The notes beneath the pieces were generated by a model. That model did no database searches. It was not told where the DNA came from and worked only from the letters and a program-made list of their open reading frames with translations. From the NCBI GenBank assembly GCA_021018995.1, contig CM037588.1:86463765-86527764 (forward strand): a stretch of DNA of 64,000 nt. The letters run 5' to 3'. Origin of the DNA: Chloranthus sessilifolius. Taxonomy: Eukaryota > Streptophyta > Magnoliopsida > Chloranthales > Chloranthaceae. Positions 22,335 to 55,763 of this stretch are shown here, piece by piece (within the stretch, counting starts at the first letter, position 1; each line of letters starts with the position of its first letter). Position numbers and translations under genes: made by a program.

Positions 22335-22760
22335 TATCTCGCACAGTTGAGGTGTTGCCTCGCATGGCTAAAGCTATAGCAGAAGTTATCTCGCATAGCT
22401 AAAATGTGCTACACAAGAGAGCTCACGATGCATTCGCGTGCTAACCCTTCAGAATTCCAGCTCGCGAAGTTTTCATGAGGATCAAGGCTTAGATTAACTG
22501 CACGCACAATCTTGGGAGGCCCATATGCATAGAGAACGACAGGAACCTCGCGAAGTCCTTGCATGGTTAAGGAGGAGAGAGATGCTCAAAAATTCCCTCA
22601 CACAGCTCTCATGCACTTTCAAGCTACTCCCTCTACCTAGCGAGTTGTGGTATTCATCTGACAAATAGCAAGAGAGAGAGTGAAGATCTACTATGCGAGT
22701 ACCTTGCGAAAAGAAAACTTCTAAAGTCCTACTGCACGAGCAGGCCAAGCACTACAAGCA
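22335..22760. promoter_or_regulatory. CTCGCGAAG motif array in LTR C
   Basis: Intact copies stand at 22461 (CTCGCGAAG) and 22546 (CCTCGCGAAG). Around them lie decayed forms such as CTCGCACAG, CCTCGCATGG, CTCGCATAGC, GAGCTCACGATG, TAGCGAG and CTTGCGAAAAG. Most decay steps are CG to CA or TG, as expected from cytosine methylation and deamination. The array stands a few hundred bases before the putative TATA. Confidence 0.65.
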
Positions 22761-23574
22761 CTTCTGCACGAGTGCATTCAAAGCTAAAGCAACTGCGTGA
22801 CAGTCTTAAATCCTTCTGCGTGAGAAAGCAGCATTCAAAGCCAAATTTTACCCCACGAATACTCTGCAAGCCACGCAAGAGAATTAATGTTGAGAATCCA
22901 GCCTCACAAAGATCGAGCTCTCCACTTCTCAATCTTACCTCAAGGACCTTTTGGGAATTTCCCTAGGTTTAGGGCACACATTCTGAGGCACTGATCTCGA
23001 GGCACACATCCCAAGACATCCAAGGGTTGTAACAGTATCACATCTGCTAAAACAATTAGGATTTACTCTTCTCTCAACCACAGCATTAGGACTGAGCATA
23101 TAAGTTGTGCTTGTAACTTAGAACTTATCAATCTCTCCTTCAACCTCTGTCGACTGAGAGCTCAAGCAGATTAGGGTTAAGTTTAGGGTTTGATCACTTG
23201 TTTTTTCATTTTTTCTTCTCTCTTAGCCTAACACTTACTGGTTAAATCTTTGGTAAGCAATTAGGTATAGTTTCATTTAGTTTTGTAATGGATCATCTAA
23301 ACATTGGGAGTTTGTGAAGAGCTGTTGTGCATACGGCTGCTGCCTTGAGAAATTACATTGTAGGTAATTTTGATCAATGGAATTTGTATCTTAAATGTTC
23401 ATTCAATCTATTATTATTCTATTTGCCCATAGTTTTATTCAAGCTGTAGAATATATTTAGGATTTGAGCTTATTGAAAGGCCCATAGAAGCTTGAGCTTG
23501 TAGCCCTGTGACCATGGTGACAACAGCAGTTTATATATTCCATCTCAGTCATCTGTGGGTAAGGCAGCCTCTGT

Positions 23575-24140
23575 GGATAGCCTGTGACCATTTGAGTGAA
23601 CAGACTATAGCCCTAAGGCAGGTCTTGATCACAGATCTGAGAAGGATTCTTCTCCTCTGCACTTGTGCTTATAGCCTAGTGAGAGGTTGTTGCAGGAACA
23701 GGCTCCCCTCTATTATACTTGACCACTATCAGATGTTAGATTGGCTTCTCTATAGTGATTACAGACTTGTGTGCTGAGTCATTGTAGGCCTTTTGTAGCA
23801 ATGACCAGCTGAGTCTAAATCCTCATTCAGCCTGAGATACCTTATGGTTCCCACCAAGTTTTCAAGGTCTGTTTGCTCCTATGACTGTTGACAGACCTGT
23901 TATAGAACTGGGGTGGTTGTAGCCTGACAAACATAGTGTCTATAATGGTATTCATGATCTGATTTAGTTCTTTGGTTGGAGAAAATCTATTGGATAGTAT
24001 GTGATTATTTAAGTGAATAGATTATAGCCTTAAGATCAGACCACTCCTTTGGATGAAGTTAGTTTTCTGATTTAATCAATGGGATTTAACAAACTCTATT
24101 GGATAGTCTGTGACCATTTAAGTGGGCAGGTTATAGCCTT
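23575..24140. repeat. Triplicated hairpin region in LTR C
   Basis: Three degenerate copies of a segment of about 36 bp, near 23576-23610, 23993-24028 and 24103-24138, with ATAGYCTGT before and AYAGRYTAT after a centre CCATTTAAGTGG or similar. LTRs E2 (42903-42934) and F (56793-56824) have one copy. The arms pair in each case, though in one C copy weakly. Confidence 0.7.
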
Positions 24141-24654
24141 AAGAGTAGTCTAAATGGCATGGGTTAAATTGGATTCTTCTACCTTGCTGTGGTTTTTGAT
24201 AGCACTTCAGTAAGGATTTGCTACAAAGACAGCCCTAAATCTGAGTTGCATAACTAAATGAACCTTAGCTTAGACTGCTTACTTCCCATCCTTTTATTTT
24301 TATTTTAATACACCATCGCCACCTTCTCCATAACCCTTTCTTAGGATAGGACTGCACTTTATTTATTTTCCTTTAGTAGGTAATTTTGTGTAGTTGTGAC
24401 ACCCAACTCTCTTTAGGATTGTCAAATCTGTAGCCAGATCTAGAGGCCTACTATTATAGCCCATTTTGGATTCTAGATCAATTTCTCTGTGGGACAAACT
24501 CTTATTTTTTAAAACATGCTACAATAGTCCTGTATCTTGCAGGTCCAGGACTATTTTAGCTTTATTGTTTCCATCTTTTATTTTACTTTGATTTTAATTT
24601 ACTTTCACCACACAATAAATTAGCACACACTGGATAGTAACAACAACAAATTTT

Positions 24655-24672
24655 TGGTGCCGCTGCCGGGAA
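24655..24672 (+). other. Primer-binding site of C
   Basis: TGGTGCCGCTGCCGGGAA after AACAACAAATTTT. It is a decayed form of TGGCGCCGTTGCCGGGGA, the site complementary to aspartate tRNA, which E1 keeps exactly. Confidence 0.85.
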
Positions 24673-24970
24673 TATTGATCTTTTTAGTAGACCTGAGTTG
24701 TATTATATTTTATTTTAAAAAATTCTTTATAGCTGTGCCATAAGTAGAATAAAAGTATTACTAATTTTTTTGGAATTTTGCAGAATTGGACAACTAGAGC
24801 TGCAGCTAGAGTTTAACTAGCTCTGTTTGCACTTCTTTTACCCTAAAATTCAGTCTTTTAATATTGAATTCCCTGTAATTAGTCTAGTTGTAAAGTTGTT
24901 TAGTTGTTAATTTAGTTTGAAAATTCTTTATGTGCTATGAGCATTTTCTTTACTTCCTGAGTTTGTGTGT

Positions 24971-26500
24971 ATGCTTGGAAGAAGGTCTCTTAACCCTGAG
25001 TTGGAACCTCCAAATCCTGAGGTTGAAAGAGTCCTTAGACCAAGAAACATCACACAAGGCCCTATTATTGAAACTGAACTAGCTGTCATGGCTGAGAGGC
25101 AAAGAACCCTGAAGGAATACAATGCACCTGGGGATTATACATCTCTCTTTTGCATACAATTCCCTTCAGTTGAAGGAAACTATGAAATCAAGTCCTCTAC
25201 CATCAACATGTTGCCATCTTTTCATGGGCTCAGTCAAAAAGATCCTTACAAATACATTGACCAATTTTTGGTACTTTGCACCACTTTCAATATTACTAGC
25301 CTGGGACCTGAAGCCACCAAACTGAGGCTTATTCCTTATTCCCTAAAGGACAAAGCCAGCACCTAGCTCTCTAAGCTCCCAGCCAATAGCATTCAAACAT
25401 GGAGTGAACTCCAAAGCCTGTTTCTGGCTAAATTCTTTCCCATAAACAAGACTATTCAGATGAGGACAAACATTTTATCATTTACTCAGTCCTCAACTGA
25501 GAATTTTTATGAAGCATGGGAGAGGTTTCAGGAGATGTTAAAGCAATGCCCTCACCATCAAATTCCACAGTGGCAATTAGTGTAAGTATTTTACCAAGGA
25601 ATTAATCCCAAGAGTAGGGATATAGTGGATGCCTCATGTGGTGGTAGTTACCTCCACAAGATAGCTAATGAGGCTTGTGAGTTGTTTGACATCATAGGAG
25701 AAAATTTCATGCAGCAGGAGTCACTGTCTCGCAATGACAGTCAGACCCCAGCTAAATTGGTGAAAGAGTCCACCCCTAGAGGTGCAATGTATGAAGTTAA
25801 GGTGCAAAGTGATTTGGAAAAGAAGGTGGACAATCTAAGTTTAAAGTTTGACAAATTAATGAATGTGATGCAGCCTCGGATGGTTGAACAAGTGAAGGAG
25901 ACATGTCTGATATGCCAATCTCCCACACATTTACTCCAGGATTATCCATCAGCCAACCAATTACCAGATTTTGTTATGGAACATGCTAATGCTGCCCAAG
26001 CATATGGCCAGCAGCGTGTTGGGTACTAATGGAGAAATCACCCAAATTTGAGGTGGAGACAAGATGCATACCCTCAGCCCCTGTAGCAGTAGTTGGTAGC
26101 TCCATACAGGCCTCAGCACTAGTTTAACCAAAGATACCCACCTAGATAAAAATTTCAGTTTCCTGCTCCACAGTCCAACCAGTTGGCCTTGCCCCCACAA
26201 CAGCCCAGATCCTCTTCCTTTGAAGAGAAAATGCTAACATCTATGCAGAATTTGAGGAACCTGATCCAAACTGTGAACTCCCATGAGCAAAGCATTAAAA
26301 AAATAGAGGACTAGTTGGGATCAAATCTATAGTACTTTGAATAAAAGAGAGGAGGGTAGACTACCTAGTCAACCCTTAGCCAACCCCAAAGGGCAGTACA
26401 TGATTGGAGAGGCATACTCTACCCATGAGGAGGCTAATGCAATCACTACCCTGAGGAATGGTACAGTGATTGATAATTTAGGAGGACAAGTCAACTGATG
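24971..26500 (+). pseudogene. gag: Gag, C
   Basis: Athila-type gag. First ATG at 24971 (MLGRRSLNPELEPPNP). Recognisable blocks are RTLKEYNAPGDYTSLFCIQF, FHGLSQKDPYKYIDQFLVLC and LRLIPYSLKDKAS, then a stop near 25364, QSSTENFYEAWERFQEML, another stop near 25587, and the coiled-coil-like SDLEKKVDNLSLKFDKLMNV. The zinc knuckle reads CLICQSPTHLLQDY; the fourth ligand, normally cysteine, is tyrosine. A more decayed glutamine/proline-rich tail follows and ends at AITTLRNGTVIDNLGG, close to where protease should begin. Confidence 0.85.
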
Positions 26501-27796
26501 AGGTCATAGAGAGCAAAAATGAAAAAAAGGTGAGTGGTGAAGAACCAAAGAATGTGTGTAACATATGTGTTGATTGTGTGTTTTGTTTTTCTTTGTTGCT
26601 TAGAAAATTTTCAATTACTATTTTTAGGGTGAAGATTTGCTTGATTGCTTTAGTCTGTTTTGCTTTATTCTGTTTTGAATACATGTGCATGTCTGTCATC
26701 TAAATTCAATGTTCAAGTCTATTGTTGATGGTTGAGATGCTCTCACAATACATATCATGAATTTGATCTGAAAGATTATCTTTGGAATTCTGAATTTGTG
26801 ATGTTTCAATGTTGATAAAGGATAACTAAATTATCATGATGAAATTGACTACATGTCAAGGAGTTAGTGCTTATGCACACTGAATTGGTGCATGACATTG
26901 TATATGTAAAGGCCAAGGCACAATGTGAGAGAAAAGGTTAAGTGTTGCCTTCTCATGAGGCTAAATGGCCTAAATTTCAAGCTCGCGAGCCACTTGTAGG
27001 CTTTCTCATGGAATTCTGAGAGAAGTTTTGTTCCTCACAAGCAAAAGATACCTGCTGAAGCCTGACATTGAGCCTCGCGAGGCTCTATCCTGTCAGCAAT
27101 AGGGAACTGCACAAAAAATGGAATTCACATTTATGTACTGCGCGAGAGCCTCGTGAGCTATCATTCTGAAGGCCACACCATTAAATAGCCTCTCGAAGTC
27201 CCTGATACTCCAAATGGATGTTCCTCGTGAAAATCACAAGTTAAGCTACGCGAGAGATGAGAAACTGCTTCGCGCGCTTAGGCCCAAATTCAACTCTTCG
27301 AAGTACCTCGCGAGGCTCATAAAGCTTCTAAATTTGAACTTCGCAAAGCTTTTTTCTCGTCCGCGATAGCACTTCTCACGAGATTAGTTGTGTACTGCAC
27401 GAGAATTATACTTCATGAGAACCTGGCGACAGCTGCGCGAACCACAGGTTCAACCCTATAAATTCAGTGATTTCTCCATTCTCGTCATTTTATTTCTATT
27501 TGCCCTAGCCTCCATTGCGCATTTTTGAGCTCCCTCTTTTCCCCTTTCTTCTATACAACCCATTCCACTCAATCTCAGCTAGTTTCCTCATACCATTTTA
27601 CTCCCCATCACCTCCTGGTCACTTTGAGCTAGGTTTAGGGGGATTTGAACATTTGTGTAATGTGTGAGGTGAAACCCTAGCTCCAGTTTGGTAAGATTTC
27701 TCACTCTCTCTGTTGAGTCGATTAGTTATTAATTGAGTGTTAAGTAGAGAAGAATTTAGGTGATTTTGCATTTGTAAAGAGTGTATTACACAAGCA
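26500..27796 (+). promoter_or_regulatory. C post-pol spacer and internal promoter
   Basis: Non-coding. The first part aligns with D's post-pol spacer. From 26981 to about 27420 comes an array of GC-core palindromes: GCTCGCGAGC (26981), GCCTCGCGAGGC (27072), CCTCGCGAGG (27306), with CGCGAGAG, CTCTCGAAG, GCGCGC and CTCGTCCGCG variants between. A TATA box, TATAAATT, stands at 27457, followed by a CT-rich start region and the ORF at 27797. The same motif array occurs in LTR C. An internal promoter for the second ORF is the natural reading. Confidence 0.7.
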
Positions 27797-28662
27797 ATGG
27801 CCAAAAGCTCAAAGTTCACAGACACGTTAGCTGCTATGCTAAACCCTCCAAATACTGGCAGCCCTGGGGTAACTCAAAAATTAATAAGGATTGCAGAGGC
27901 CTCCATAGTGGAGACCTCTGATATGCCTATTCAAATGGTTGAATCCCAGATGGAGCAACCAGCTAAGAAGAAATCCGCCCCAAAGAAGAGGGCCAGAGAG
28001 CACCAATCTGCCAAAAGCTCTAAAAAATCAATGAAGAAACAGAAAAAGGGCAAGACTGTGGCCCATGAGGTCCCTGAGGATGAAGAGGAAGAAGATAATG
28101 AATACCTCAGGATCCCCTCTGAATTTATTACAGCAATTAAGCTAAAGGCAGAGACAATTTTTGATAACAACTGCCTCCATGGAGTACCTCACAAGAGCCA
28201 CATTGCTGCCCCTACTGAGGCCCCCAATGCAACTAGTCTTCCCTAGACTAGTGCAATTATTTTACCAAAATATCAGAGTCAAGACTGGGGATGATGGGAA
28301 CCCAACATTACTGGTGTTGATCAACAAATTTAAGATGTTGTTCAATTAGGCAGCCATTGCTATAATACTTGGGATACCTGCCAAGTACAGCCCTGTGTGT
28401 GGCTTGGGTCCCCCATTGACAGCCACCATCCCCAAAATTGCTAAGGAACTGACTAGAGAAGTCGTTGCATCAGGGGTATCAATCAGGAAGAGAGATATGC
28501 AACCCAACCTCAGATTTATGGATGGGGTGCTAAGGAAAAATGTGTTTTGCTCTGGAGATGAGCAAGAGAGGAGGTCTCCTATTGCTGATGTACTCTTTTC
28601 ATTCCACATGAATCACTACTTGGATGCTGCCAAGTTAATTTTTGAATGGATGAAAGGCCAAA
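27797..28662 (+). pseudogene. Second ORF of C, first part
   Basis: Starts at ATG 27797 and is open to 28246, then shifts frame. Residues about 50-92 form a strongly basic tract (KKKSAPKKRAREHQ, KSSKKSMKKQKKGK) that could be a nuclear localisation or nucleic-acid-binding segment, followed by an acidic patch (PEDEEEEDNEYL). After the frameshift comes LVQLFYQNIRVKTGDDGNP and, past a stop, AIILGIPAKYSPVCG; the pattern 'FY-N ... LGIP' is that of the putative plant transposon protein family found in Athila-type elements. The part ends at AKLIFEWM where LTR E1 begins. Function of the family is unproven. A counterpart in the env position of Athila elements is well known; I see no signal peptide here. 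Confidence 0.7.
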
Positions 28663-30392
28663 AAGAAACAACCTCAGCAATGGCTAAAAAGGGTCTAAAA
28701 GAGCAGACAAAGACCTGAAAAAAAGAGAGAGAGCCATTCGCAAAGAAGAATGGGAGCCTAGAGTCCAATTCGCAAAGAACTTTTACTATTCGCAAAGAAC
28801 CTTGATCTTTGCGAAAAGAAGAAAACACTCCTCGAATAGAAGATTTACCTCTGCGAAAAGAACTTCTGAAGCCAAAGTCCTTTGCGAAAAGAACTTCTGA
28901 AGCCAAAGTCCTTTGCGAAAAGAACTTCTGAAGCCAAAGTCCTTTGCAAAAAGAAGTTCTGAAGCCAAGATGCTTTGCAAAAAGAACTTCTGAAGCCAAA
29001 ATGCTTTGCGAAAAGAACTTCTGGAGCCAAACTACTTTGCGAAAAGACCCTTAAACTCTGCGAAATGGCATCTTGAGGATTCTGACCACTTTGAAGGGCA
29101 TTCGATAAACTCGCATGCGCCCTAATGTAATTAAAAGCCCAAAGACATTCCGAAAGATTCCAAGCACAAACCAAAGGCATATTCACGTGAAAATCCAAAG
29201 ATGAAATCACTTGGCGGGAACTTCTAAAGCTCAAACAAACTTTTGAATTCCCATACAAAATTGATGCTTCTAACGCTTTGATTGGCTAAACCGGATCGAG
29301 CATTTTCATTGGCGGAAACAGATCCGGATCCCGTGCTCATGACCATTGGGCAATCGGATCTGAGCCCGATTGGTCAATTGACCTTGTGCGAGGATAGAGG
29401 AAAGCTATAAATTGAGAAGACATTTGCCCAATTGAGGCATCCAGATTTTAGAGTTTTCATCTCTGTTTCCCCATTCGGTCGAAAGCTCATCGATTCCTGT
29501 AATCCCTTCTTGTATTTTACCTTTGAGAGCCATTGCAGTGATTTGTACTTCCAAGTTCGGATTCAAGATCAGAATCGAGGGCTCTACGAGAAGCTCGAGA
29601 CTATAAGTCCGAGGGCTCTCTAAAAGCCGTGCTCTGTAATTGTAACGTTGGATTTTAAAAGGTTCGTAATTTGTGTCTTCTCCATTGGAGTCATGTCGAG
29701 GGTTAATGTTCACCTTAGTGCATTAGACTTCTTTAGATTCACTCATCCGCATCCAACTTCCCTTAATTCATCATCCTGCGAATTAGCGTTGGTAACCTAA
29801 TTCAAGCGGCATTCTGATGATGTTCATGTTACGAAATAAAGAATAGGCCTGACTAGGCGATGATGCATGTGACAAATCACGACCATAAGTCTAAACCTAT
29901 TCCTTAATTCGGATTTATTTCTCTTACATCTGTCTTTGGTAGCGGATGAAGATTGAATCTGCTTTCTGTTGAACTCTGATTCTCCATTAAAATTCAAAGG
30001 CTAAAATACATGAAGCTATTATTTGCATTTGTCTTATTTTAAACACCTCCACAACTCGGATCACGGATCACGTAGTTAGTTCTTTTCTTTATTTGCTTTT
30101 AGTTAAACGTGACAAAACCCAACACTCTCTTTTATCTATTCTTTATTTTAGATAATTATAGAGCCGGATCTGGTAGCAGATCGAAGGTTTATCTCTCATT
30201 TTAGACAAACTTCTCTGTGGACGATCTTGAAATACTTACTTTTAAAACTTGCTACAATTGGCCCTGATCTTGCAGGCCAGTGTTAGCCCCAATGTGCTGA
30301 TATCCCTTTCATAAGTTAAGATCCATATAATTTAGCATTCTTTAATTCTTTAATTTTTTGCACACATTTTTGGCACACTTGGAGCGTCAACA
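28663..30392 (+). repeat. E1 5' LTR, start lost
   Basis: Aligns with the 3' LTR from its position about 34875 on, ending TCAACA. It has the TTTGCGAAAAGAAC array (28736-29062), TATA box TATAAATT at 29406, a hairpin region near 29855-29885 and the R/U5-like end. Differences from the 3' LTR are mostly small insertions and deletions. Confidence 0.88.
28736..29062. repeat. 31-bp repeats with TTTGCGAAAAGAAC
   Basis: First come isolated TTCGCAAAGAAC copies in both orientations (28736-28830), then about six tandem 31-bp units from 28853, each with CTTTGCGAAAAGAACTTCTG and AAGCCAAAGTC. Later units change CG to CA. The 3' LTR carries the same array at 34940-35290 with more irregular units. The array lies 350-650 bp before the TATA box. 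Confidence 0.9.
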
Positions 30393-30398
30393 AGTTTT

Positions 30399-30416
30399 TG
30401 GCGCCGTTGCCGGGGA
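30399..30416 (+). other. Primer-binding site of E1
   Basis: TGGCGCCGTTGCCGGGGA, six bases after the LTR end. An exact complement of the aspartate tRNA 3' end as used by Athila-type elements. Confidence 0.93.
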
Positions 30417-33137: not shown

Positions 33138-34698
33138 CGGACAAGTCTGCCTAGGGAATAGTTAACATAAGGCGAGAATCACCTAAGTAATTAGGAAATG
33201 TATTAATTTACTTTAGAATCATGACAACTAGAAAATTTAAAATTTCTTTGCCAAATGTAGACATCATAAACCTTTCAATATTCTACATTTCCACGATGCT
33301 AGCACCATGAAAACCCTCTGGTATCGGCATTTAGCAAGTCAAAGGAAGAGAAAAGGTAAAGATATACTTAAAAGCTCAAGGAAAAACCATAACCGGTGAG
33401 AATTGAGCCCATATATTTTCCATTGAAGAGTGTGAGGCAATTTTTACGATTCAAAGGATTGGTGAGGCATTAGATCCACTAGAAGTTAGGAAACTCCAAA
33501 TTAAAACAAGTATGACACTCATGAAGCCGAGGAAAAGATCAAGGCCTTCTTTGAATGACTTGAACCTAACAGAACCAACCAAGAAAAATCTGCCCTGTTT
33601 GTACCCCATTTGAGTATAAATCCTACAATTCTTCATCAAAATACTCAAAAGTACTTGCACGAACCTATGGAACCAATTCAACCTTCCCTCACTCTGAGAA
33701 TTCAGAAGGTAAAGGAGAAAAAAGCGAAGATGGACCATTTCGGGCAACATCAAGAAAATGAAGAGAAATACCTCAAAAGCAGGCAATATGGTGACTGAGA
33801 AAAGAAGAGACAAACAATGTGAAAAGTTGCAAGCAAAAAGGCAAAAAAGGGACTTTATGTTGAAAATTCAAGATCAAAGAAAGAACTGATCACCGTGAAT
33901 GTGAGAATCTCGAAAAGAAGAAGAAAGAAGCTAAACTCAAAAGGTGGAGTCATGAACCATCTCCACTTCCCGAGTTCTCAAATTCAAACCTCTGTTCAAG
34001 CGCCTTTCCTTGAAACTTCACTCCATAAGCCATACAAACAAACCTAGATTAAAAGCCCTTGTGATCCAAAGTTGAGTGAGCTGTCATGTGGAGATAAGAA
34101 GTGACCTAATCTATGGTGAGGAGATGTCAATGATGCCATTGCCTAAGAATCATGCCTATGCTCATGCTTACAGATCCATTTAGGAGATGTAAGCGCTCTT
34201 GAGCTTGAGTGAAAATGAACCCCTCAACAAAAACAACGATGAGAGTATACCTGGTGAGTGTTTGGGTTGGAACTTGAGCACCTTAAGTATGACTTATAAC
34301 CTAATTTTTATCCATAGGATGAGCTTCTTCTGGCACATTTGTATGAGTTTCTATGATTTGTTCACATGATTGGAAATATTGAAACATTCATGAGGTTTAT
34401 AAATGTTTAAATCCTGTGCAAACAATAATCAAATTTCTGTTTCATCATTGATTCAAGAGTAACTAACTGCTCCTTGATTGCTCATTTGATAATATTGCGA
34501 TGTTAAGCTGTTTCATGGAGAAGTTTGTGGGTACCTTCACTTGAAAACCCTCAGAGACTTCACTCCTCCTCTAGGGATCACCTAGGGGTTTAAAAGGCTT
34601 GTTGCATATGCTAAATGCACTGCTTCCTACAAAAGTGGCTCTTTATTTTGCTTTTATGTTTCTTTGCTCGGGGACTAGCAAAGCTTAGGTTTGGGGTG
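33138..34698 (+). other. E1 inter-tract region and terminal PPT
   Basis: About 1.56 kb without ORF but clearly related to the same interval in E2 and F. Conserved islands include TGAGAATTCAGAAGGTAAAGG (as in E2), CACATGGAGATAAG-like sequence near 34085, ATGCCTATGCTCATGCTTAC, and a 120-bp block at 34519-34640 (GGGTACCTTCAC ... CTAGGGATCACCTAGGGG). Then CTTTGCT/AGCAAAG arms and the terminal tract AGGTTTGGGGTGTG (34687-34700) just before the LTR. Confidence 0.75.
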
Positions 34699-36589
34699 TG
34701 TTAAGTAGTGAAAATACCATTTTTACCCTAAACATGAGCTTTGAAAGACCCTTGAGAAGACTAAATAAGTGCTTTAGTGTGCATTTCTGACTAACCAATT
34801 AGGCAGTCCAAGTCCGAAAAGCATCCTAAAATGATCAAAAAGCTAACAACTCATGTCAAGTGAAAGATGGATTGAAGAAACAACCTCGAATGGCTAAAAG
34901 GGTCTAAAAGAGCGAGATAAAGACACGAAAAAGAGAGAGCCATTCGCAAGAAGAAGAATGGGAGCCTAGAGTCCAATTAAAGAACTTTTACTATTCAAAG
35001 AACCTTGATCTTTGCGAAAAGAAGAAAACACTCCTCGAATAGAAGATTTACCTGCGAAAAGAAGAGAAGTCCTGCGAAAAGAACTTACGAAGCCAAAGTC
35101 CTTTGCTAAAAGAACTTACGAAGCCAAAAGTCCTGCGAAAAGAACTTGAAGCCAAAGTCCTTTGCGAAAAGAAGTTACGAAGCCAAGATGCTTTGCAAAG
35201 AACTTCGAAGCCAAAATGCTTTGCGAAAAGAACTTACGGAGCCAAACTACTTTGCGAAAAGACCCTTAAACTCTGCGAAAATGGCATCGAGATTTCTGAC
35301 CACTTTGAAGGGCATTTCAAGAACTCAGACGCGCCCCAATGTAATTAAAAGCCCAAAGACATTAAAGATTCCAAGCACAAACCAAAGGCATATTACGTGA
35401 AAATCAAAGATGAAATCACTTGGCGGGAACTTCTAGAAGCTCAAACAAACTTTTGAATTCCCATAACGAATTGATGCTTCTAACGATTGGCTAAACCAGA
35501 TCGAGCATTTTCATTGGCGGAAACGGTCTGGATCCCGTGCTCATGACCATTGGGCAATCGGATCTGAGCACGATTGGTCAATTGACCTTGTGCGAGGATA
35601 GAGAAAGCTATAAATTGAGAAGACATTTGCCCAATTGAGGCATCCAGTTTTAGAGTTTTCATCTCTGTTCCCCATTCGGTCAGAAGCTCATCTGATTCCT
35701 GTAATCCCTTCTTGTATTTTACCTTTGAGAGCCATTGCAGTGATTTGTACTTCAAGTTCGGATTCAAGAAATCGAGGGCTCTTCGAGAAGCTCATTTGTA
35801 AGTCCGAGGGCTCTCTAAGCCGTGCTTTCTGTAATTGTAACGTTGGATTTTAAAAGGTTCTTTGTAATTTGTGTCTTCTCCATTGGAGTCATGTCGAGGG
35901 TTACGAATGTTCACCTTAGTGCATTAGACTTCTTTAGATTCACTCATCCGCATCCAACTTCCCTTAATTCATCATCCTGAATTAGCGTTGGTAACCTAAT
36001 TCAAGCGGCATTCTGATGATGTTCATGTTACGAAATAAAGAATAGGCCATACTAGGCGATGATCGTGACAAATCACGACCATAAGTCTAAACCTATTCCT
36101 TAATTCGGATTTATTTCTCTTACATCTGTCTTTGGTAGCGAGATGAAGATTGAATCTGCTGTTGAACTCTGATTCTCCATTAAAATTCAAAGGCTAAAAT
36201 ACATGAAGCTATTATTTCTGCATTTGTCTTATTTTAAACACCTCCACAACTCGGATCTGGATCACGTAGTTAGTTCTTTTCTTTATTTGCTTTTAGTTAA
36301 ACGTGACAAAACCCAACACTCTCTTTTATCTATTCTTTATTTTAGATAATTATAGAGCCAGATCTGGTAGCACAGATCTGGAGGTTTATCTCTCATTTTA
36401 GACAAACTTCTCTGTGGACGATCTTGAAATACTTACTTTTAAAACTTGCTACAATTGGCCCTGATCTTGCAGGCCAGTGTTAGCCCCAATGTGCTGATAT
36501 CCCTTTCATAAGTTAACATCCATATAATTTAGCATTCTTTAATTCTTTAATTTTTTGCACACATTTTTGGCACACTTGGAGCGACAACA
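34699..36589 (+). repeat. E1 3' LTR
   Basis: 1891 bp, TGTTAAGTAG to GCGACAACA. Complete at both ends. TATA box TATAAATT at 35609; hairpin TCGTGA-CAAA-TCACGA at 36063-36076 with outer arms AATAGG/CCTATT. C's second ORF resumes right after it. Confidence 0.9.
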
Positions 36590-39838: not shown

Positions 39839-39999
39839 AATACATTGTACATGTTTGTTTTGTGGATCTGTAATATGTAATTCCTGTTTTCTGTTAACTT
39901 TTATTAATTAGTAATTACTGTGCATTTCTTTTCTTTCTTCTCTGTCATTATAATTTATGTTTGTTGTTTTTTCTTTTCTCTTTGCTTATGCACTTCTGA

Positions 40000-40038
40000 C
40001 CAGTGAGGACCCTACTCATCATCGGTTTGGGGGTGTGG
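40000..40038 (+). other. Internal polypurine tract of E2
   Basis: CGGTTTGGGGGTGTGG at 40023-40038 after CAGTGAGGACC (from about 40000). It stands 185 bp after the ORF stop and 1.58 kb before the 3' LTR. Confidence 0.75.
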
Positions 40039-40727
40039 CAGAATAATATGATTTAGTTAAAATCAACGACTTATGATCACGAAATTTTTAAAGATAAAGT
40101 AATTTCACACCTGTTGTTTTGAAAAATGAGGAAGTTAAAACTTTTTAAAACTTATTTTTAGTGTAATTCCAATACTTTCATGAAGTGAATGTCAGAAAAT
40201 TTTCAAAATAAAATTGATGTTTTAGTAAACCTAAAAAGAGAGAAAACAGTGATGATATACCTCAGGAATTTGATAAAAAACTACACCCAGTGAGACTTGG
40301 GCCTAAAATGTATTCTTTGGAGATATGAATTGGCAATTTTATTTGCTCTAGGGACTGTTTGAACCTGCTTACTATCACTAGAAGTTACACATATTCAAAT
40401 TGAAATAACTTGACAACAATCATGATATTAAGGACATGATGTAAGGCCTCCTTTTGAACAGTTTGAACTTCAATAAGCCCCACCTTTTGAAACTGCCTTT
40501 GATACACACCAGTTGAGCTTTATAAATCCAAGATTTCTTTGAAACCTCATCAACCAACCTAATCAACCTCATTTGGCCTAACCCTCACTCTGAGAATTCA
40601 GAAGGTAAAGGAAAAGAAGCTGAAGAAAGGAGAGTTGGGAAACAGTTTGGTAAAAGAAGAAGAAAAATAATTGAAGGCAGTGATGTATCAACAAAAGAAA
40701 TGTGGCAATCCAGTCAATGTTGCTTTG

Positions 40728-40764
<37 letters not shown>

Positions 40765-41613
40765 GGAAAAGTCATTTCATTGGAAATTTGAAAAAAGAAA
40801 GAGAAAAAGATGGCCACTTTGGCTCTGAAAATTCAAAGAAGAAGATGAAATTGTGTTGAAATGAAGAAGGTGTGTCTACCACCTCCTGACCTTGACTGAC
40901 TTCTCAATTTTGAACTCCATTCCACCTCTTTATTCTTGATAAATTTCACCCATAAGCCACATTACAACCCAAGTTAAAGTCCTTACTGATCAATGATGGA
41001 TTGAGCTGTCACATGGAGATAAGGATTTGTGTAATCTATGGTGGAAAGCGGTAAATTCAGGCGAAAAGCAATGCCTATGCTCACCTTACGTTCTATTTGA
41101 GATAGAATCGCTTGCTTGAGCTGTGTGAAATAGTACAACCCTCCTATTTGCATGATGAGTGAAAACCCTGGTGAGAGTTGAGTTTGAAATCAAATTATTT
41201 GGGGTAACATCAAAACTGAATTTTCAAATAGAAGGCAAGCTTTTCATTAATTTTTCTTGTAAAAACTTTGACACAAACTGAGTGAATGGTAAAAGGAATT
41301 ACAGCAGAATTTTAGTTTTAAACTGATGTTTTCTTGAAGATCTTTTTCTGACTTGGTGATGCAGGTGTGAATAATCATTTGGATAAAAGTCGCTTTAATA
41401 ATGCATTGATATTAACTGATTTATTGGAGAAGTTTGTGGGTACCTTCACTGAAAACCCTCAGGAGACTTCACTCCTCCACTAGGGATCACCTAGGGGTTT
41501 AAAAGGCTTGTTGCATATGCTATATGCAACTGTGTTCCCTACAAAAGTGGCGTTTCATTCTATTTTTAATTTTTTCTTTGCTTAGGGACTAGCAAAGCTT
41601 AGGTTTGGGGGTG
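40039..41613 (+). other. E2 inter-tract region and terminal PPT
   Basis: Non-coding. Contains an A-run at 40731-40757, islands shared with E1 and F, the conserved block at 41425-41552 with hairpin arms GTTGCATA/TATGCAAC (41510-41530), arms CTTTGCT/AGCAAAG near 41577-41597, and the terminal tract AGGTTTGGGGGTGTG at 41601-41615. Confidence 0.75.
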
Positions 41614-43465
41614 TGTTGAGAACTGGAAAATACCATTTTCCACCCCTTAACATGGGTCTTGATAGACCTTTGAGAGAACTAAATAAGTATTTTAAGTGTT
41701 TGTTTCACAGCTAATAATAAAGGTAGGCTTAACCCTGAAAGCAACCTAAAAGTGCCAAAAAGATGATGATCCATGTTGATCCGGAGGAAGAAGGAGAAGG
41801 GACAACCTCACTAGCTGTCAAAATGCCTAAACTAAAGAGGACAAAGGCCTGGTTTCAACCTGGAAAGAGGTGTGGAGCTATTCGAACAGAAGAATGCATT
41901 ATTGCTTTTGAAAAGAATCTAAACTTTTGAAAAGAATCGAACTTTCGAAAGAACACGAACTTCTGAAAAGAACTAAAGCTCGGGCTTAGTTTTTGAAGAG
42001 CACTGAACTCTTCAAAAGGATTTACGACTTCGAAAGAAGAGAACTCCTTGCGATTACCATGCGAAAAGAGCTTGAAGTCACGATACCTTGTGAAAAGTTC
42101 TCCAAGCTGAAAATGGTACTCAAGATTCGCATCTGTAAGGGTAATTGATAATCTACGCACCCAATGCATTTAAAAACCCAGGGACATTCTGAAAGATTCT
42201 GAGCACGAACCAAAGGCATATTCCACCCCATGTGAACACCCTAAGATGAAATCACTTAGCGGGAACTTCTAGAAGCTCTAACAGATTTTTAAATTACATA
42301 ACAAAATTGATGCTTCTGTCATCTGATTGGTTGAACCAGATCAAGCAGTTCTGATTGGCCAAAACAGATCTGAATCCTTGTGCTCGACTCCTATTGGTTG
42401 ATACAGATCTAACCAATTCTGATTGGTTGATACACATCTGAGCTAGACTTGGGGAAAACTATAAATAGATGAACCATTTGCCCGATTTGGGTATCCAGAT
42501 TTTGAGTTTCATTTCTATTGCCCCATTTCCATTTCAGATAGCTTGTCTGGAAATTCTGTAATAGCCTAGCTTTTATTTGTAATTGAGAACTGTGAGATAC
42601 TTTTGTAATTCAAGTGAGAATTGTATTCAAGACTACAAATCCGAGAGCTATTTAAGTTGTGCTCTGTAATTGTAATGGTGAATTTGAAAAGGTTGCTGTG
42701 AACCGTACGTTCTCAATTGGATTTGTGTTAAGGGTTCCCTGTGATCTCCTTATTTCATTAGATTCCTTTAGATTTACTATTTTTAAAGCAATTTTCCTTA
42801 ATTCTTTATCCCTGTGAGAATTGGCGTTTGTAACCTAATTTCTCACAGCATTTGTAGTGGTGTTTTTGTTCTAAATCACGGATTCGAATTGAAGGCTATT
42901 GGATGATCTGTGTCCATTGAAGTGGACAGACCATAGCCATAAGTTCAACTCAATTCCAATCCTTGAGTTGGATTACTTTCTCTTGCATCTGTGCTGGTAG
43001 CCAGATGAAGATTGGATAATATCTCACGTGTTTTACATTTATTCTCATTCTGCAATCAATTACTAAATCGAAGTTAGATATTATTTCTCCATTCTTATTA
43101 ATTTACATCAAACCTCCCCAACTTGGATCTGGATCATTTAGTTTTAATTTTTCTTTTATCATTTAGTTAATGTGACAAATTCAACCTCCCATCTTATGTG
43201 CTTTGTAAATAGGATCAGAGGTCAAATCTGGTAGCTCAGATCTGAAGGTTTATCTTACATTTTAAATCAATTCCCTGTGGACGATCTTTTACTCACTTAC
43301 ATTTAAAACTTGCTACAATTGGCCCTGATCTTGCAGGCTAATTAAGTTCTCTCTGTGCTGATATTTCTTTATTTCTTTTTGGTTTTCCAAATTCAATACA
43401 ATTCATCATTTGCGAATCTGTTTTTAAAAACACAAATAAATTATGCACACTTAGAATCGACAACA
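41614..43465 (+). repeat. E2 3' LTR
   Basis: 1852 bp, TGTTGAGAAC to CGACAACA. An array of TTYGAAARGAAC-like motifs at 41880-42090, TATA box TATAAATA at 42460, and the hairpin ATGATCTGT/ACAGACCAT at 42903-42934. Its overall plan aligns with LTR E1, but the motif differs and E2 has no regular 31-bp units. Confidence 0.88.
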
Positions 43466-43634
43466 GTAACCCAGCCTACTTACGAGTCGCGGCCTGCATC
43501 ACTTAAATCATTACTAGTAAAGCTTTCTGCATCAAAGAGTAAGGATGACTTACAAAGGAAGGGCATGGGATAAGAGTTGTGAGCATGGAAGAAAAGAAAG
43601 ATGCCAACTAAAAAATAATATATAAAATGACAGA

Positions 43635-44654
43635 GTGGTCGTCGTAGAAAAAGAAGAGGTTGAACCACAGTCCATGGAATATAAATTTATGGTCAGTATG
43701 TGGAACCGGCCTGAGGATGACAATTCTACGCTCGTGAATACTATTTCTGGTATTGACGTCACCATAGAGAATTTAAGAGTCCTCAAGGGAAGGATGTGGC
43801 TTGACAATGAAATGATAGGCGCGTACTTCAAAGTCCTAGAGAGTAAGAATGACTCTATATTTACGGAAATGACGGATAAAAGCTGGTTTGCATCGGCCTC
43901 AACCCTGGTATTATTTTTTTCTTTATTATTTTATTTATTTATCTACCTTTAATTATTTACGTCATTCATGTCTTTCAATTAATGACTTATTCTAATGATC
44001 AATTTCAGGCCCTGATTATAGCGGACCACTCAAAATTTGAAATTTTTGTCCGTGATGAAAATCTAGGACTACTCAACGACTTAGATAGATGGGAGGCGTA
44101 TTGTGACAAGTGGCAGGTTCATCACCACTGCAAGCCACTTGAGACTCTGCTTAGGAGTACGACACATGGTATTGATGTTGTCGATTGTAGGATGATAAGT
44201 TCTTTTTTAAATTATGTTAATACTTTTTATATTTCTTAATTAACACAGTATTAATTAGATCTTCGGTTGTACATAAATTTATTTTCTAACACATAGCCAT
44301 TGGGCATTGGCTATTGTGTCTGTAGCGGACCGCGTTGTGAAGCTGATAGACTCGGCCGACCGTGAGTATTCAAAGAAGTTCAAAGCGCACAAAGAAAGTT
44401 TGTTGCATCCCCTGTCGCGACTTCTTCACACTGTCAGATTGAGTTCTGCTCTCAATCAATCGTGGCAGCTAACGGTGATGGACAGTGTCGATATTTTCTG
44501 CCAACACAATGGTTGGCACTATGGTGTTTTTGTACTAAAGTATGTTGAGTATTTTTCCGAATGGCGAATAATAGATTTCGAGGAGAAAGATATGTTGCAA
44601 TTTCGAGCCGAAATCGGACATTCATTGTTCACGTTTGGAAAAATCACTAAGTAG
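43635..44654 (+). pseudogene. Ulp1-like cysteine protease, broken
   Basis: C48-family (SUMO protease) fold, three exon-like pieces. Exon 1 gives NLRVLKGRMWLDNEMIGAYF (family signature 'WL-D-HI-A'), followed by a likely intron from GTATTA (about 43909) to TTTCAG (about 44010). The second piece gives RWEAYCDKWQVHHHCKPLET. After another intron-like AT-rich stretch ending ACATAG, the third begins HWALAIVSV with the catalytic histidine (44298-44300); aspartate follows in VKLIDS and the glutamine in FCQHNG. The nucleophile should be cysteine in DCGVF; here the codon at 44520-44522 is TAT, giving HYGVFVLKYVEYF. So the enzyme would be dead even if expressed. Ends at 44654. Confidence 0.78.
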
Positions 44655-50998: not shown

Positions 50999-51463
50999 TA
51001 TTGAGCACTGTTTTATACCATTTTATATCCCTTAAACCTGGCTTTTGCTAAGCCTCAGAGTATTAAGGAAGTAATTGCAACCTTAGTGTAGTTTTCAATT
51101 AAAAAGTGCCATTCAGGGGGAATTTGGAATCATTTAAGAGCAGAGAGAGAGATGTGCTTTCACACATAAAGAAGAAGTACAGCAGTAGGTTCTTGGACCT
51201 CATGAACTGTAGCAGCACTATCTTGAGCAGCCCAAGTTGATCCAAGCAATGTCTGTGCACACCAGCTGCACATTAACTGCATGTCAAAACAGATCCAGAA
51301 CAGCTGAACCTCTTGATGGATTGTTGAACTCTCTATTTCACCTGATCAAATGTAGCTCCAACATTTCCAAATGGAAACAGCATGTTCTTGAAAGTGATAA
51401 AATACAGCAGCTGAACCCTCCAAGCTGTGATCCTGTCGAGCTGTAGTCCATGCAGCAGCAACA
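50999..51463 (+). repeat. F 5' LTR, internally deleted
   Basis: Starts TATTGAGCACTG (TG changed to TA) and its first 260 bp match the 3' LTR at roughly 85-88 percent by eye. It then passes to a short end with one CCTGTCGAG copy (51432) and CAGCAGCAACA. The motif array, TATA box and hairpin of the 3' LTR are missing. Confidence 0.75.
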
Positions 51464-51469
51464 AGTTTT

Positions 51470-51487
51470 TGGCGCCGTTGTCAGGGG
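51470..51487 (+). other. Primer-binding site of F
   Basis: TGGCGCCGTTGTCAGGGG after AACAAGTTTT; two changes from the E1 site. Confidence 0.9.
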
Positions 51488-52827: not shown

Positions 52828-54482
52828 AGGTTTGGGGGTATGGCAGGTATGCCAATGGAGTAGTGAATGCTAGTGCAACTATGTTAAATAAAATTTGTGA
52901 AAATAAAGTGAATTTTCACCTGATTTTTTTTTTTAAATAAAGGAAATTAAAAACTTTTTAAAACTGAAATGTGTTATAGTTCTAACACTTTTATGAAGTA
53001 AATGTCAAGAATTTTCAAAAATTGGCTTAGTGAACCTGAAAAGAGATTTGTGAGGATATACCCTCGAAATTTGATGGAAGACCATACCCAGTGAGATTTG
53101 GGCCTGAAAAATTTTCCTTGAGGAGTGTCTTGGCAATTTTTCTGCTCTAAGGACTAATTGGATCTAATTTTGCTCACTAGAAGTTAGACAAATCCAAGTT
53201 AAAACAGTTTGACAACATTCATGACATTAAGGACATGAAATAAGGCCATCCTTTGAACATTTTGAGCTTGAAATTTTCCACCTTTGAACTGCCCTTGATA
53301 CACACCATTTGAGCCTTGAAAACCTAAGTTGTTCTTTGACAAGAAACCAAAGTATTTTTTTCCCTGAACCTCTTAACCTTTTTCAGTTCACCCTCCATCT
53401 GAGAAGTCAAGAAGTAAAGGGAGAAGTAAGGTTGGAGGAGTAAGGTTTTATATTTGGTGGAAGGAGAAGAAAACACATTAAAAGGTAGTTGTGTATTAGA
53501 TGTATAGTTGTGGCATTCCAGTCCATAAAAAAAAATACAAAGGAAAAGCATACAAAAAGAAAAAGAGAAGGAAAACAGAAAAACAAAACAAAAGAATGAG
53601 AAAGAGAAGTCATTTCATTGAAAGATTGAAAAAAAAAAAAAAAAAGATTAAAAATTGATCACTTCAAATCTGAAAATTCAAGAAGAAGATGAAGATGAGC
53701 TGAAATGAAGAAGGTGTTGTCATGACCACCTCCTTATTTTACTGATTTCTCAATTTTGAATCCCATTCTACCCTTTCATTCTTTATAAACCTCACCCATA
53801 ACCCACATTACAACCCAATAAAAAGACCCTACTTATCTGAAATGGATTGAACTATCATGTGGAGATGAGGATTTGTTTAATATATGGTGAAAAGAGTTGA
53901 AAAATTTTAGGAATTAGAGCAATGCCTATGCTCATGCTTGCAGTCCTATTTGAGGGCTATAACTGCTCTTGAGTTGTGTGAAATGATGCACCCTTCTATT
54001 TTTTGTCAGTGACTGCCCTGGTAAGACTTAGGTCTAAAATTGAATTTGCTTGGGGCATTATCAAAACAGAATTCTCAATTTAATGGTAAGCTCTGCATTA
54101 ATTTTCATGCACAATGCCTTGACATAAGTTGATTGATAGTGAAGGAATTACAGCAGAATTACAAGTTTAAATTGTTGTTTTTCTGCTGAGAATCCTCTAA
54201 AATTGAATGCACAAGGTGTGAAATGAATTTTATTTTATTTGAACTCTGTTTTAGCATGTTGCATTAGTATTAACTGATTTTATTGAAGAAGCTTGTGGGT
54301 ACCTTCACTGAAAACCCTCAGGAGACTCTACTCCTCCACTAGGGATCACCTAAGGCTTTAAAAGGCTTGATGCATGTGCCAAATGCACCCGTGTTCCCTA
54401 CGAAAGTGGCATTTGGTTTTGTAGGTTAGTTGTTTTAAATTTCACTTTGCTCGAGGACTAGAAAAGGTTAGGTTTGGGGGTG
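52828..54482 (+). other. F internal PPT, spacer, terminal PPT
   Basis: Internal tract AGGTTTGGGGGTATGG at 52828-52843. A 1.6-kb non-coding spacer follows with the islands seen in E1 and E2, including GCCTATGCTCATGCTTGCAG near 53925 and the block at 54285-54410. The terminal tract AGGTTTGGGGGTGTG lies at 54470-54484. The arm pair before it is weakened (CTTTGCT/AGAAAAG). Confidence 0.75.
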
Positions 54483-55041
54483 TGTTGAGCACTGATTTTT
54501 ACCACATTTTACTCCTTTAACCTGGCTTTTGCTAAGCCTCAGAGTATTTAATAATTGCATTTAAATATTGATTTGCAGTTTGGAAGAATGTACATCCTTA
54601 GTGCAGTTTTCAGTTAAAAAGTGTCATTAAGGAGGAATTTGGAAATCATTTAAGAGCAGAGAAAGAGAGATGTGCTTTCACACATGAAGAAGTGCAGCAG
54701 TAGGTTCTTGGACCTCATGAACTACAGCAGCACTGTTTTGAGTAGCCCAAGTTGAACCAAGCAATGCATGTGAACACAAGATGCATACTAGTTGCACATT
54801 TCAGAAGATTGCACACTACAGTGGATGTGCATACAAGCTGCAAGCACTCCAAATTAGAGCTATTAACCTTCAAAGCATCTTCTTGGACTGTGGAGCTGAC
54901 AAAAGCAAACATTTGCACACTAAAGAACTGTGTGCACACTAAAGCAACACAGCTGTTGTAAGCATTCAAGCAGATCTTAAGCAGTGCTGAAATAAATTGA
55001 AGAGGAATAGATCTGTCAAGTTAAAGAAAGGGCTGAAGCAA

Positions 55042-55763
55042 CCTATCGAGTGGTAGCTTGGAGCTTTTAGCATCCTATCGAATGGATAAGCTACCAATAG
55101 AACCTGTCGATGTGCATTCCAGTCCCCAGCAATCCTATCGAGCAGATGTAGACTTCCCAACTCTTTAACCTCTAGAGCAAAAGCAGTTTTAAACCTGTCG
55201 AAAGCTATCTCTTCTACAGATTTTATCCTCTCGAGTGGATACCCATCAACTCCAAAACCTCCCATTGTACCTATCGACCAGCAAAGATCCAAAGTCTTCC
55301 AAGCCTTACAACCTGTCGAGCCTTTAAGCTGCTCCATCCTCCCATCCAACCTGTCGACTATTTGTTTTAAAAAGCTTCACCAAACCTATCAACAGCTACC
55401 TGCACTCACACTCCCCAGCAACCTGTCGACAAGATCCCCAAATCCACACTATAACCTGTCGACTTTCCAGCCCCTTGAACGTCTTGAAGAGCAGCAGCCT
55501 CCAAACGTCTCAACCTGTCGAGGTTTTGCACTCCAACTCCAAACCTGTCGAAAAGCAGTTAGCTACCTTCAACCAACTGCTCAACCAGTAGCCATAATCC
55601 CCTCCATCCTCTCGAAATGCCACTCTCATCCTCACGGAACACTTACCTTAAGCTATTGGGTTTTCAAGAACCTCTCGACCAGCAGCTCACACCTTCAGCC
55701 AACCTCACGAAATGGATGGAATCCATCACAGAACCTGTCGACCGTCAGCTCCCATCCTCACGA
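55042..55763. promoter_or_regulatory. CCTRTCGA motif array in LTR F
   Basis: Sixteen exact CCT(A/G/C)TCGA copies start at 55042, 55074, 55103, 55134, 55194, 55227, 55270, 55312, 55350, 55422, 55455, 55514, 55544, 55618, 55671 and 55734; decayed ones at 55385, 55630, 55703 and 55756. All are in one orientation. Typical spacing is 29-43 bp or about twice that, and the sequence between is unique. The array ends 590 bp before the TATA box. Confidence 0.92.

Follow-up and report, generated by a model that had tools for sequence, protein, structure and literature searches.

Family-specific CG-motif arrays as putative methylation-sensitive promoter modules of Athila-like Ty3/gypsy retrotransposons

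The U3 of Tnt1, a Ty1/copia element, changes fast and carries subfamily-specific repeated activator boxes, and these tandem boxes define the Tnt1 subfamilies; we know of no CG-island background for them. In Sireviruses, which are also Ty1/copia elements, RM boxes form clusters in the LTR and, if ENV is present, before that gene as well (Bousios et al. 2010, PMC2829016). Methylation is reported to abolish the promoter activity of the vertebrate CGCG element TCTCGCGAGA (PMC6192621). Here we analyse arrays of short CG-containing motifs in a 64-kb stretch of DNA (the window) and in related genomic copies. Our favoured reading, to which we give a probability of about 0.6, is that the arrays are homotypic clusters of putative binding sites that act as methylation-sensitive promoter or enhancer modules of Athila-like Ty3/gypsy elements.

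With dinucleotide shuffles as the null, motif arrays occur far above chance in the window. The LTR arrays and one isolated site are as follows.

22335..22870, + strand: C-family LTR U3 array of CTCGCR/TCGCGA/GCACGAG sites, a CpG island in an LTR otherwise purged of CG
28736..29062, + strand: array of the E1 5′ LTR, a 31-bp tandem unit with TTTGCGAAAAGAAC
34940..35290, + strand: array of the E1 3′ LTR
41880..42120, + strand: array of the E2 LTR; its motif class is that of E1, in altered form in the window copy
51432..51439, + strand: lone F motif in the remnant of the F 5′ LTR
55042..55763, + strand: F LTR array, 18 copies of CCTNNCGA in a single orientation with ~31.5-bp phasing

The motif marks the family: CTCGCGAG, which is palindromic, belongs to C, and the directional motifs AACCTRTCGA and TTTKCGAAAAGAAC belong to F and to both E1 and E2, respectively. 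All 18 CCTNNCGA sites of the F array are on the + strand and none is on the − strand, against 0.23 expected from dinucleotide shuffles; 13 of them read CCTRTCGA, whose sole further occurrence within 64 kb is at 51432. The E1 arrays contain GCGAAAAG six and seven times (~0.1 expected), mostly as the 31-bp tandem repeat, and the C LTR array has six CTCGCR-type sites (0.5 expected) and two TCGCGA sites (0.07 expected). The preliminary description was correct in reporting CGA-core arrays, whose counts prove to be well beyond chance, but it missed their CpG-island character and the internal arrays described below. Two of the exact motifs it gave do not occur where it placed them. Exact CTCGCGAG is absent from the C LTR array at 22335-22760; in the window it is found at 18448, 18524, 26982, 27074 and 27307, all in internal regions. 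Exact TTYGAAARGAAC, given for E2 at 41880-42090, has no occurrence there or elsewhere in the 64-kb window.

The motif clusters of E1, E2 and F lie in the upper half of the LTR ahead of the TATA box, and the C array occupies the same half of an LTR with no TATAAA at 22760-23400. The 200-700 bp originally proposed between array and TATA box fits E1 and E2 (~320-370 bp) and F (~590 bp; a further TATAAA lies 23 bp past the array). A CCT-N(1-3)-CGA signature, picked post hoc and weak in the window E2 copy (one site), is common to the families, and on this ground suggests that a single ancestral site type may lie behind the family motifs.

Further genomic copies of C, F and E2 were located through flanking sequence alone, and the best-scored ones were examined. 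Among these best-scored copies, 29 of 30 have the C-family internal array (window copy included), and the counts are 20 of 20 for the C LTR array (12-34 CG per 620 bp, with exact CTCGCGAG in 15), 19 of 20 for the F array and 12 of 12 LTRs for the E2 array, so that other copies of these families do carry the arrays. The one exception among the C-family internal regions, the locus L051, was rejected as an array-less copy because an E2 LTR is inserted at the array position. In the 12 other E2 LTRs the motif is TTT(T/G)CGAAAAGAA(C/T), which is the E1 motif; E1 and E2 therefore do not have separate codes. The motifs of C, F and E differ consistently, as had been claimed, and recur in other copies, but the notion of four different codes was rejected, the post hoc CCT-N(1-3)-CGA pattern also linking the families.

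The arrays are islands of CG in DNA that otherwise has little. In the window their CpG observed/expected ratio (o/e) is 0.63-1.39, compared with 0.00-0.24 for C, F and pol/ORF2 DNA; the C LTR has 16 CG in 426 bp of array (o/e 0.69) and 10 in 2238 bp elsewhere (0.12). The clusters are the CpG islands of the element for C, D, Cm, F and E2 in the window and for the internal copies of the C family. The two E1 arrays show no clear enrichment over their own LTRs (o/e 0.83 versus 0.81, p 0.86; 1.11 versus 0.69, p 0.054), and the entire E1 LTR is CG-rich. In the C-family internal region, 29 of 30 flank-found copies have 12-35 CG in 560 bp of array as against 0-9 in the 659-677 bp upstream. Because 54% of array CGs are common between copies, compared with 1% in the upstream and 14% in the downstream flank, the sampled copies go back to a common ancestor that was poor in CG outside a CG-rich array. 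When C-family arrays are compared between copies, CG ranks with the less conserved dinucleotides (D 0.54, others 0.47-0.74; C LTR 0.45, others 0.40-0.71), which we attribute to decay of the copies. Motif CGs decay with the age of the copy: across five LTR pairs, deamination has struck one LTR at 27 of 79 comparable motif CGs, and the rate of motif-CG decay in dead copies is not cleanly different from that of other CGs. The sites therefore have no lasting protection, and the idea that every insertion keeps its array CGs shielded was rejected.

The F family shows how the motif fares as its surroundings change. In the window, conservation of the array is highest at the CG core, kept in 18 of 19 motif-like sites among diverged spacers, and the LTR around the array is CG-purged. 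The 20 flank-found F copies have 231 intact sites and 77 with TG/CA in place of CG. In 20 F loci chosen by array match, o/e is 0.36-0.61 in the densest 800 bp and 0.08-0.60 in the remainder of the fetched stretch, the two being about equal in three loci (L009, L014 and L022). Orientation is nearly uniform, with 267 + and 7 − sites in the array-matched loci and 231 + and 5 − in those chosen by flank. When the window F LTR is aligned with 20 other F loci, coverage is 24% in the array, only 20% in the preceding U3, 53% in the stretch that follows the array and 84% on the U5 side. On this alignment, the F U3 turns over as a whole and the motif persists within it. To call the array the fast-changing part was therefore too narrow, and the array was rejected as the sole fast-changing part of the F LTR, since the U3 ahead aligns no better. 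The remainder of the LTRs is, as had been stated, alignable between E1 and E2 (68% over ~1.2-1.3 kb), but for C and F the similarity to the other families is confined to blocks of ~40-180 bp.

The C family has an additional array inside the element, in the following setting.

18340..18760, − strand: internal CTCGCGAG array of a second element, after its pol, homologous to the array at 26930..27450
19215..21723, − strand: pol pieces (RNase H and neighbours) of this minus-strand element
24941..26029, + strand: C-family gag-region pieces, so named by position, CG o/e ~0.04
26930..27450, + strand: C-family internal array upstream of the second ORF, three CTCGCGAG sites, 26 CG in 521 bp
27457..27463, + strand: TATA box right behind the internal array
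27797..28246, + strand: start of the second ORF, behind the internal array, env-like by position only and interrupted by E1

The flanks of the minus-strand array align to 26555-27007 (64%) and 27393-27536 (71%); no TATAAA stands behind that array. As a raw count, 22 of 30 internal copies have their first TATAAA 406-587 bp past the flank that precedes the array, and only two of 30 have TATAAAT or TATAAAA at that place. The start region of the second ORF was recognised in 25 of 30. An extra cluster after pol and ahead of the next ORF was found in the C family only; the internal regions of E1 and F, as far as the window contains them, have none.

The minus-strand pol piece matches PF17917/PF17919, which are RT/RNase H families, and plant proteins, of which one is named transposon opus. 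From these matches, the primer site and the ORF order we take the elements to be Ty3/gypsy, and we presume them to be Athila-like from their long LTRs, the TGGCGCCGTTG-type primer site and the ORF after pol. Pfam gave no match for the gag-region pieces at 24941..26029, no useful match for the E1 pieces and no family above the curated cut-off for the ORF2 pieces, in which no DNA-binding domain was recognised; the N-terminal ORF2 piece has no homologue at E <= 0.001. The conserved block that precedes the PPT was checked for a fold, and three sequences of it showed no covariation.

From this organization we infer that the arrays bind protein, are sensitive to methylation and have promoter activity, and that the propagating copies were under selection. 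One module would lie in U3, upstream of the promoter for the genomic RNA, and the C family would have another in front of an internal promoter that serves the second ORF. Transcription would be driven by nuclear factors of the host that bind the motif in its unmethylated state, and CG methylation would turn the module off. Long methylation would have removed CG from almost everywhere else in the lineage, and the copies that kept CG in their array sites would be those that were transcribed and propagated. The different motif variants of the families would presumably engage different factors; we considered E2F, CAMTA, ARF and DREF-like factors as possible candidates.

Several other explanations have to be weighed against promoter modules. 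The arrays might be neutral young U3 minisatellites, high in CG merely because their units are recent and undecayed. Ordinary tandem arrays are indeed what E1 (31-bp unit, TRF score 316) and E2 (19-bp unit, TRF score 83) have, and the F array probably also began as one, since its spacers resemble one another somewhat more than shuffled spacers do (mean local score 6.44 versus 5.55; 0 of 200 shuffles as high). However, the F units share little beyond the 10-bp motif and must therefore be old, yet their CG is mostly kept. The C-family arrays in the window have no significant period, they persist between elements with 64-71% identical flanks, and the identical internal position is filled in 29 of 30 copies. 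A tandem minisatellite alone fits E1 and E2 but not F or C, and we regard neutrality as quite unlikely overall. It is very unlikely that the arrays are handles for the host, recognised by silencing machinery (CG-methyl readers or RdDM initiation) and kept as a by-product rather than for activation. The CG islands are the main CG-methylation substrate in these elements, and deamination in old copies suggests that they were once methylated; but selection should then have purged their CGs, as selection or mutation did elsewhere, and yet they were present in the ancestor from which the sampled copies descend.

The preliminary description proposed an analogy with VANC, in the form of a self-recognition code for a host or element-encoded DNA-binding protein; in the element-encoded version a protein, perhaps that of ORF2, would bind its own array and lift silencing, motif and protein diverging together. 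The account of the motifs stands in that they are short, clustered in U3, with a CG or CGA core, and family-consistent; they also recur in other copies, and in F they have one orientation and persist through the turnover of U3. The arrays are also dense and non-coding, with one orientation in F and E and repeat turnover, as is reported for VANC targets; the C motif is found in the LTR as well as ahead of ORF2, whose N-terminal piece has a lysine-rich basic stretch that we read as NLS-like; and a sunflower Athila clade is reported to show a drop in LTR methylation in all contexts. An anti-silencing protein encoded by the element is not supported by the Pfam and homologue results for ORF2 or by the deaminated motif CGs of old copies, and the published VANC motifs (YAGTATTAY and AGTTGTCC/AGTTGTAC) lack CG. 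We therefore consider such self-recognition unlikely. We are very doubtful of a combined scheme, in which lineages purged of CG save for one or two family islands would use these as both self-recognition and methylation switch, with an ORF2-encoded or co-opted host protein reading its own array and activating genomic RNA and second ORF through a separate channel per family.

If the promoter-module reading is right, it would point to a general route by which retrotransposons in methylated DNA could keep an on-switch that methylation can read, and gives a testable answer to how the extra ORF is expressed. Because the background is CG-purged, candidate sites are visible without experiments, and the identical scan can be applied to other plant genomes.

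The C motif CTCGCGAG is the 8-bp core of the vertebrate CGCG element TCTCGCGAGA, which is likewise set in CpG-island promoters and works with a TATA box in one promoter (PMC6192621); that element serves vertebrate housekeeping promoters. The VANC targets of VANDAL21 and VANDAL6 are reported to be short, family-specific, dense, non-coding and uniformly oriented, with tandem turnover (Hosaka et al. 2017, PMC5735166). Their one-orientation tandem character is shared by F and E, whereas C is palindromic and aperiodic; VANDAL, moreover, is a DNA transposon whose motifs lack CG and whose cognate protein is known, and the ORF2 pieces here revealed no such protein. By analogy, Sirevirus RM boxes are the closer precedent, and one within LTR retrotransposons. 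They too are high-copy short CG-core motifs that form CpG islands ahead of the LTR TATA box and vary between elements, and their extra cluster precedes ENV as that of the C family precedes a second ORF that is env-like by position only. The core is CGA/CGCGA here and CGG-CCG there; the Sirevirus motif is palindromic with CGG-CCG, the C motif palindromic without it, and F and E directional. The RM-box-like layout, known from Ty1/copia, is by this comparison found here in Ty3/gypsy elements. If so, two unrelated groups with an extra ORF after pol, Sireviruses and Athila-like elements, would have reached the same regulatory design, in which one CG-motif island precedes the LTR promoter and a second one precedes the extra ORF.

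The window is plant DNA in which LTR retrotransposons are nested in one another. The LTRs that a preliminary description had named, belonging to four families designated C, E1, E2 and F, are real, with borders established from sequence reading and pairwise alignment. We provisionally label these elements Athila-like, and the second open reading frame (ORF2), which follows pol, env-like by its position. The two E1 LTRs are 92% identical over aligned stretches (blastn), and E1 inserted inside the second ORF that starts at 27797. An RNase H piece has many plant protein matches, at no more than 71% identity among the 120 matches listed.

LTRs in the window, from sequence reading and blastn
28663-30392, + strand, E1 5' LTR
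about 34695-36595, + strand, E1 3' LTR, the fuller one
about 41620-43470, E2 LTR
about 51001-51465, F 5' LTR remnant
about 54481-57280, F 3' LTR

Directly 5' of the polypurine tract (PPT), E1 (34511-34646), E2 (41420-41555) and F (54279-54414) share a non-coding block, about 136 bp long, with 77% (E1) and 90% (F) identity to the E2 copy; folding of three sequences gave no covariation. The block also occurs on the minus strand of the genomic stretch L033, where it flags a fifth relative. A Ulp1-type protease (Peptidase_C48) fragment at 44277-44654 lies near the E2 LTR, and a 62-bp tandem repeat (10.6 copies, 16391-17038) follows the pol region of another gypsy element. A satellite with a 14-bp unit (ATGCTTGAACATGA), possibly pericentromeric, fills window positions 1-2848 and runs about 20 kb further upstream (L030-L031).

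We compared motif counts with dinucleotide-preserving shuffles of each U3 array (200 in one run, 500 in another). The F array holds 18 copies of CCTNNCGA on a single strand where 0.23 are expected, the E1 arrays hold 6 and 7 copies of GCGAAAAG (about 0.1 expected), and the C array holds 6 CTCGCR-type sites (0.5 expected) and 2 TCGCGA (0.07 expected). Some motifs were not recovered as first described: CTCGCGAG, assigned to the C LTR, has no exact copy in the C interval proposed for it and five in two internal regions, while TTYGAAARGAAC has no exact copy anywhere in the 64-kb window. The window copy of the F array is almost invariant over its 10-bp motif but not in the neighbouring columns, and CG is kept at 18 of 19 motif-like sites. 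This array is phased at about 31.5 bp (simulation p = 0.0055), near the 31-bp unit of E1, and its spacers are slightly more alike than shuffled ones (similarity 6.44 versus 5.55), which fits an old tandem origin.

The two E1 LTRs (28663-30392 versus 34875-36595) are separated by 33 gap events and 84 substitutions (57 blocks), in the form of clustered short indels and substitutions that often place CTG or CAG in one LTR and CG in the other. Judged by eye, differences of the same kind set the window E2 array (41880-42170) apart from 12 other E2 copies. These CTG/CAG differences look like local assembly consensus errors rather than mutation; CHG methylation may play a part in them, and the motif letters as initially read may have been changed by such errors.

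We then extended the analysis to the 2.17-Gb assembly (32 contigs; the window is on contig C5). The samples for C, F and E2 are best-scored matches rather than random draws, and some sampled loci are probably two LTRs of one element (for example on contigs C1, C3 and C10 for E2; C2 and C15 for F; C3 and C8 for C). The C flank (22880-23500) gave 5837 candidates, of which the best 40 were scored and 20 of the 39 other places cut out. All 20 carry 12-34 CG per 620 bp (observed/expected CpG, o/e, 0.55-0.98), with TCGCGA in 19 and exact CTCGCGAG in 15; CCTRTCGA and GCGAAAAG were each found in none of the 20. For F (flank 55800-56420; 2367 candidates, best 40 scored, 20 of 39 others cut out), 19 of 20 copies have 7-21 CCTNNCGA on the plus strand and 0-1 on the minus strand, at an o/e of 0.31-0.64, and L079 has no intact motif and four decayed forms. 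The 20 copies together hold 231 CCTNNCGA on the plus strand, 5 on the minus strand and 77 sites with TG/CA instead of CG; TCGCGA occurs in one and GCGAAAAG in none. A further 20 F loci, a biased sample picked out of 46 array matches, have 4-21 CCTNNCGA each on the plus strand (267 in total) and 7 on the minus strand. Their o/e is 0.36-0.61 in the densest 800 bp and 0.08-0.60 in the remaining stretch, the two being about equal in L009, L014 and L022. The E2 flank (42150-42700; 5535 candidates, best 40 scored) found 39 other places at 94-97% identity, and all 12 that were cut out have a TTTKCGAAAAGAA-type array with 7-15 CG per 351 bp and neither TCGCGA nor CCTRTCGA. On C1, C3 and C10, probable E2 LTR pairs are spaced by about 12.4-12.7 kb, and the family appears young. 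The fifth relative, located through the pre-PPT block in the 60 kb beside the window, has a U3 cluster of three AAAATYGYRATT (0.0 expected; one LTR, with the motif picked after looking), and its array has 10 CG in 290 bp (o/e 1.59 versus 0.62).

The window arrays (o/e 0.63-1.39) are CpG islands on a CG-purged background. The o/e is 0.04-0.14 in C gag, C R-U5, ORF2, the minus-strand pol, the F internal region and 38450-41600, and in the F LTR it is 0.00 on the 5' side of the array and 0.24 on the 3' side; two other gypsy regions of the same window reach 0.6. Relative to the rest of the stretch, CG is enriched (Fisher p at most 6e-4) in the arrays of C (16 CG/426 bp versus 10/2238), F (22/722 versus 11/2082) and E2 (10/211 versus 18/1641), a contrast drawn from window copies and, for F, the 20 array-matched loci, and in two internal arrays, at 26930-27450 (26/521 versus 3/723) and 18340-18760 (23/421 versus 2/484). 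The E1 arrays show no clear excess over their own LTR, which is CG-rich throughout (p = 0.86 and 0.054). CG is low even where stop-free frames still span 117-184 codons, so the purge is probably a trait of the propagating lineage rather than the result of post-insertion decay alone.

The two internal arrays, one on the minus strand (18340-18760) and one on the plus strand (26930-27450), are CTCGCGAG clusters within homologous stretches, whose flanks align at 64% and 71% by blastn and whose array centres do not align. The former follows a minus-strand pol, and no TATAAA was found behind it; the latter is followed by a TATA box (27457) after about 20 bp and by ORF2 after about 350 bp. A genome query with the pre-array flank alone (26555-26930) gave 1550 first-look candidates; the best 40 were scored and 30 cut out, including the window's own. 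The array is present in 29 of the 30 (12-35 CG per 560 bp, at least one TCGCGA each), with 0-9 CG in the 659-677 bp upstream and mostly 1-12 in the 916-1844 bp downstream. The downstream exceptions are L048 (25 CG), L059 (53) and L061 (21), in all three of which the ORF2 start was unrecognised. The thirtieth copy, L051, was rejected as an array-less copy, an E2 LTR being inserted there, and L060-L062 are three matches in about 3 kb and hence not independent. The ORF2 start region was recognised 722-989 bp downstream of the query flank in 25 of 30 copies. As a raw count, 22 of 30 have their first TATAAA 406-587 bp past that flank, and the stricter TATAAAT or TATAAAA occurs in 2 of 30. C-LTR and internal-array matches are found on the same strand 7.2 kb apart at C8:40.54 Mb and 3.66 kb apart at C14:36.21 Mb (3.68 kb in the window), and thus both arrays very likely belong to one family. 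The two shorter spacings (window 22880-26930; C14:36209813-36213838) are too short for a full pol, and such loci are perhaps a mobilised pol-less subfamily.

When 20 F loci selected by array similarity were compared with the window F LTR, the aligned share was 84% on the U5 side, 53% just after the array, 24% in the array and 20% in the U3 before it. It is thus the whole U3 that turns over, with the motif persisting inside it. In the internal regions, CG is common to copies in 54% of comparisons for the array (omitting L051, L061 and L062), 1% for the upstream flank and 14% for the downstream flank (26 copies, omitting L048, L059, L061 and L062). Within arrays, CG is among the less conserved dinucleotides (0.54 versus 0.47-0.74 for others in copies of the internal array at 26930-27450; 0.45 versus 0.40-0.71 in the C LTR), as expected of decaying, methylated copies. 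Across five presumed F LTR pairs (90-94% identity), motif CGs were kept, deaminated or otherwise changed in 52, 27 and 4 cases, and other CGs in 31, 40 and 38; the kept-versus-deaminated difference has p = 0.008, with new CG gains in one LTR as a confounder. Dead copies thus lose motif CGs, and retention is probably decided by which copies propagate.

The simplest account of these sequence patterns is that the arrays are clusters of CG-containing putative binding sites acting as promoter activators. They would activate the LTR promoter and, in the C family, additionally an internal ORF2 promoter, and CG methylation could silence them. The vertebrate TCTCGCGAGA element, whose core is the C-family motif CTCGCGAG, loses promoter activity when methylated and, in one promoter, acts jointly with a TATA box (PMC6192621).

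The preliminary description had instead likened the arrays to a VANC-like self-recognition code. VANC targets are likewise family-specific tandem motifs, but the published motifs lack CG and their cognate protein is known (PMC5735166, PMC10398659). A methylation drop in the LTRs of one sunflower Athila clade, reported in PMC12844716, would fit either a methylation-sensitive promoter or a VANC-like system. Among the listed titles and abstract openings of open-licence papers, none described such arrays in Athila-like elements, a search that does not show their absence from print. The layout of the window arrays matches that of Sirevirus RM boxes, which are present in many copies with a CG core, form CpG islands and stand 5' of the TATA box in the LTR, with additional copies upstream of ENV (PMC2829016). 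The same paper describes RM boxes as specific to Sireviruses and lacking in 'classic' retrotransposons. The window elements, however, are assigned to Ty3/gypsy, their motif core is CGA/CGCGA and two of the three motif classes in the window are directional. Thus, the arrays are not members of the Sirevirus RM-box system, but the likeness of design holds.
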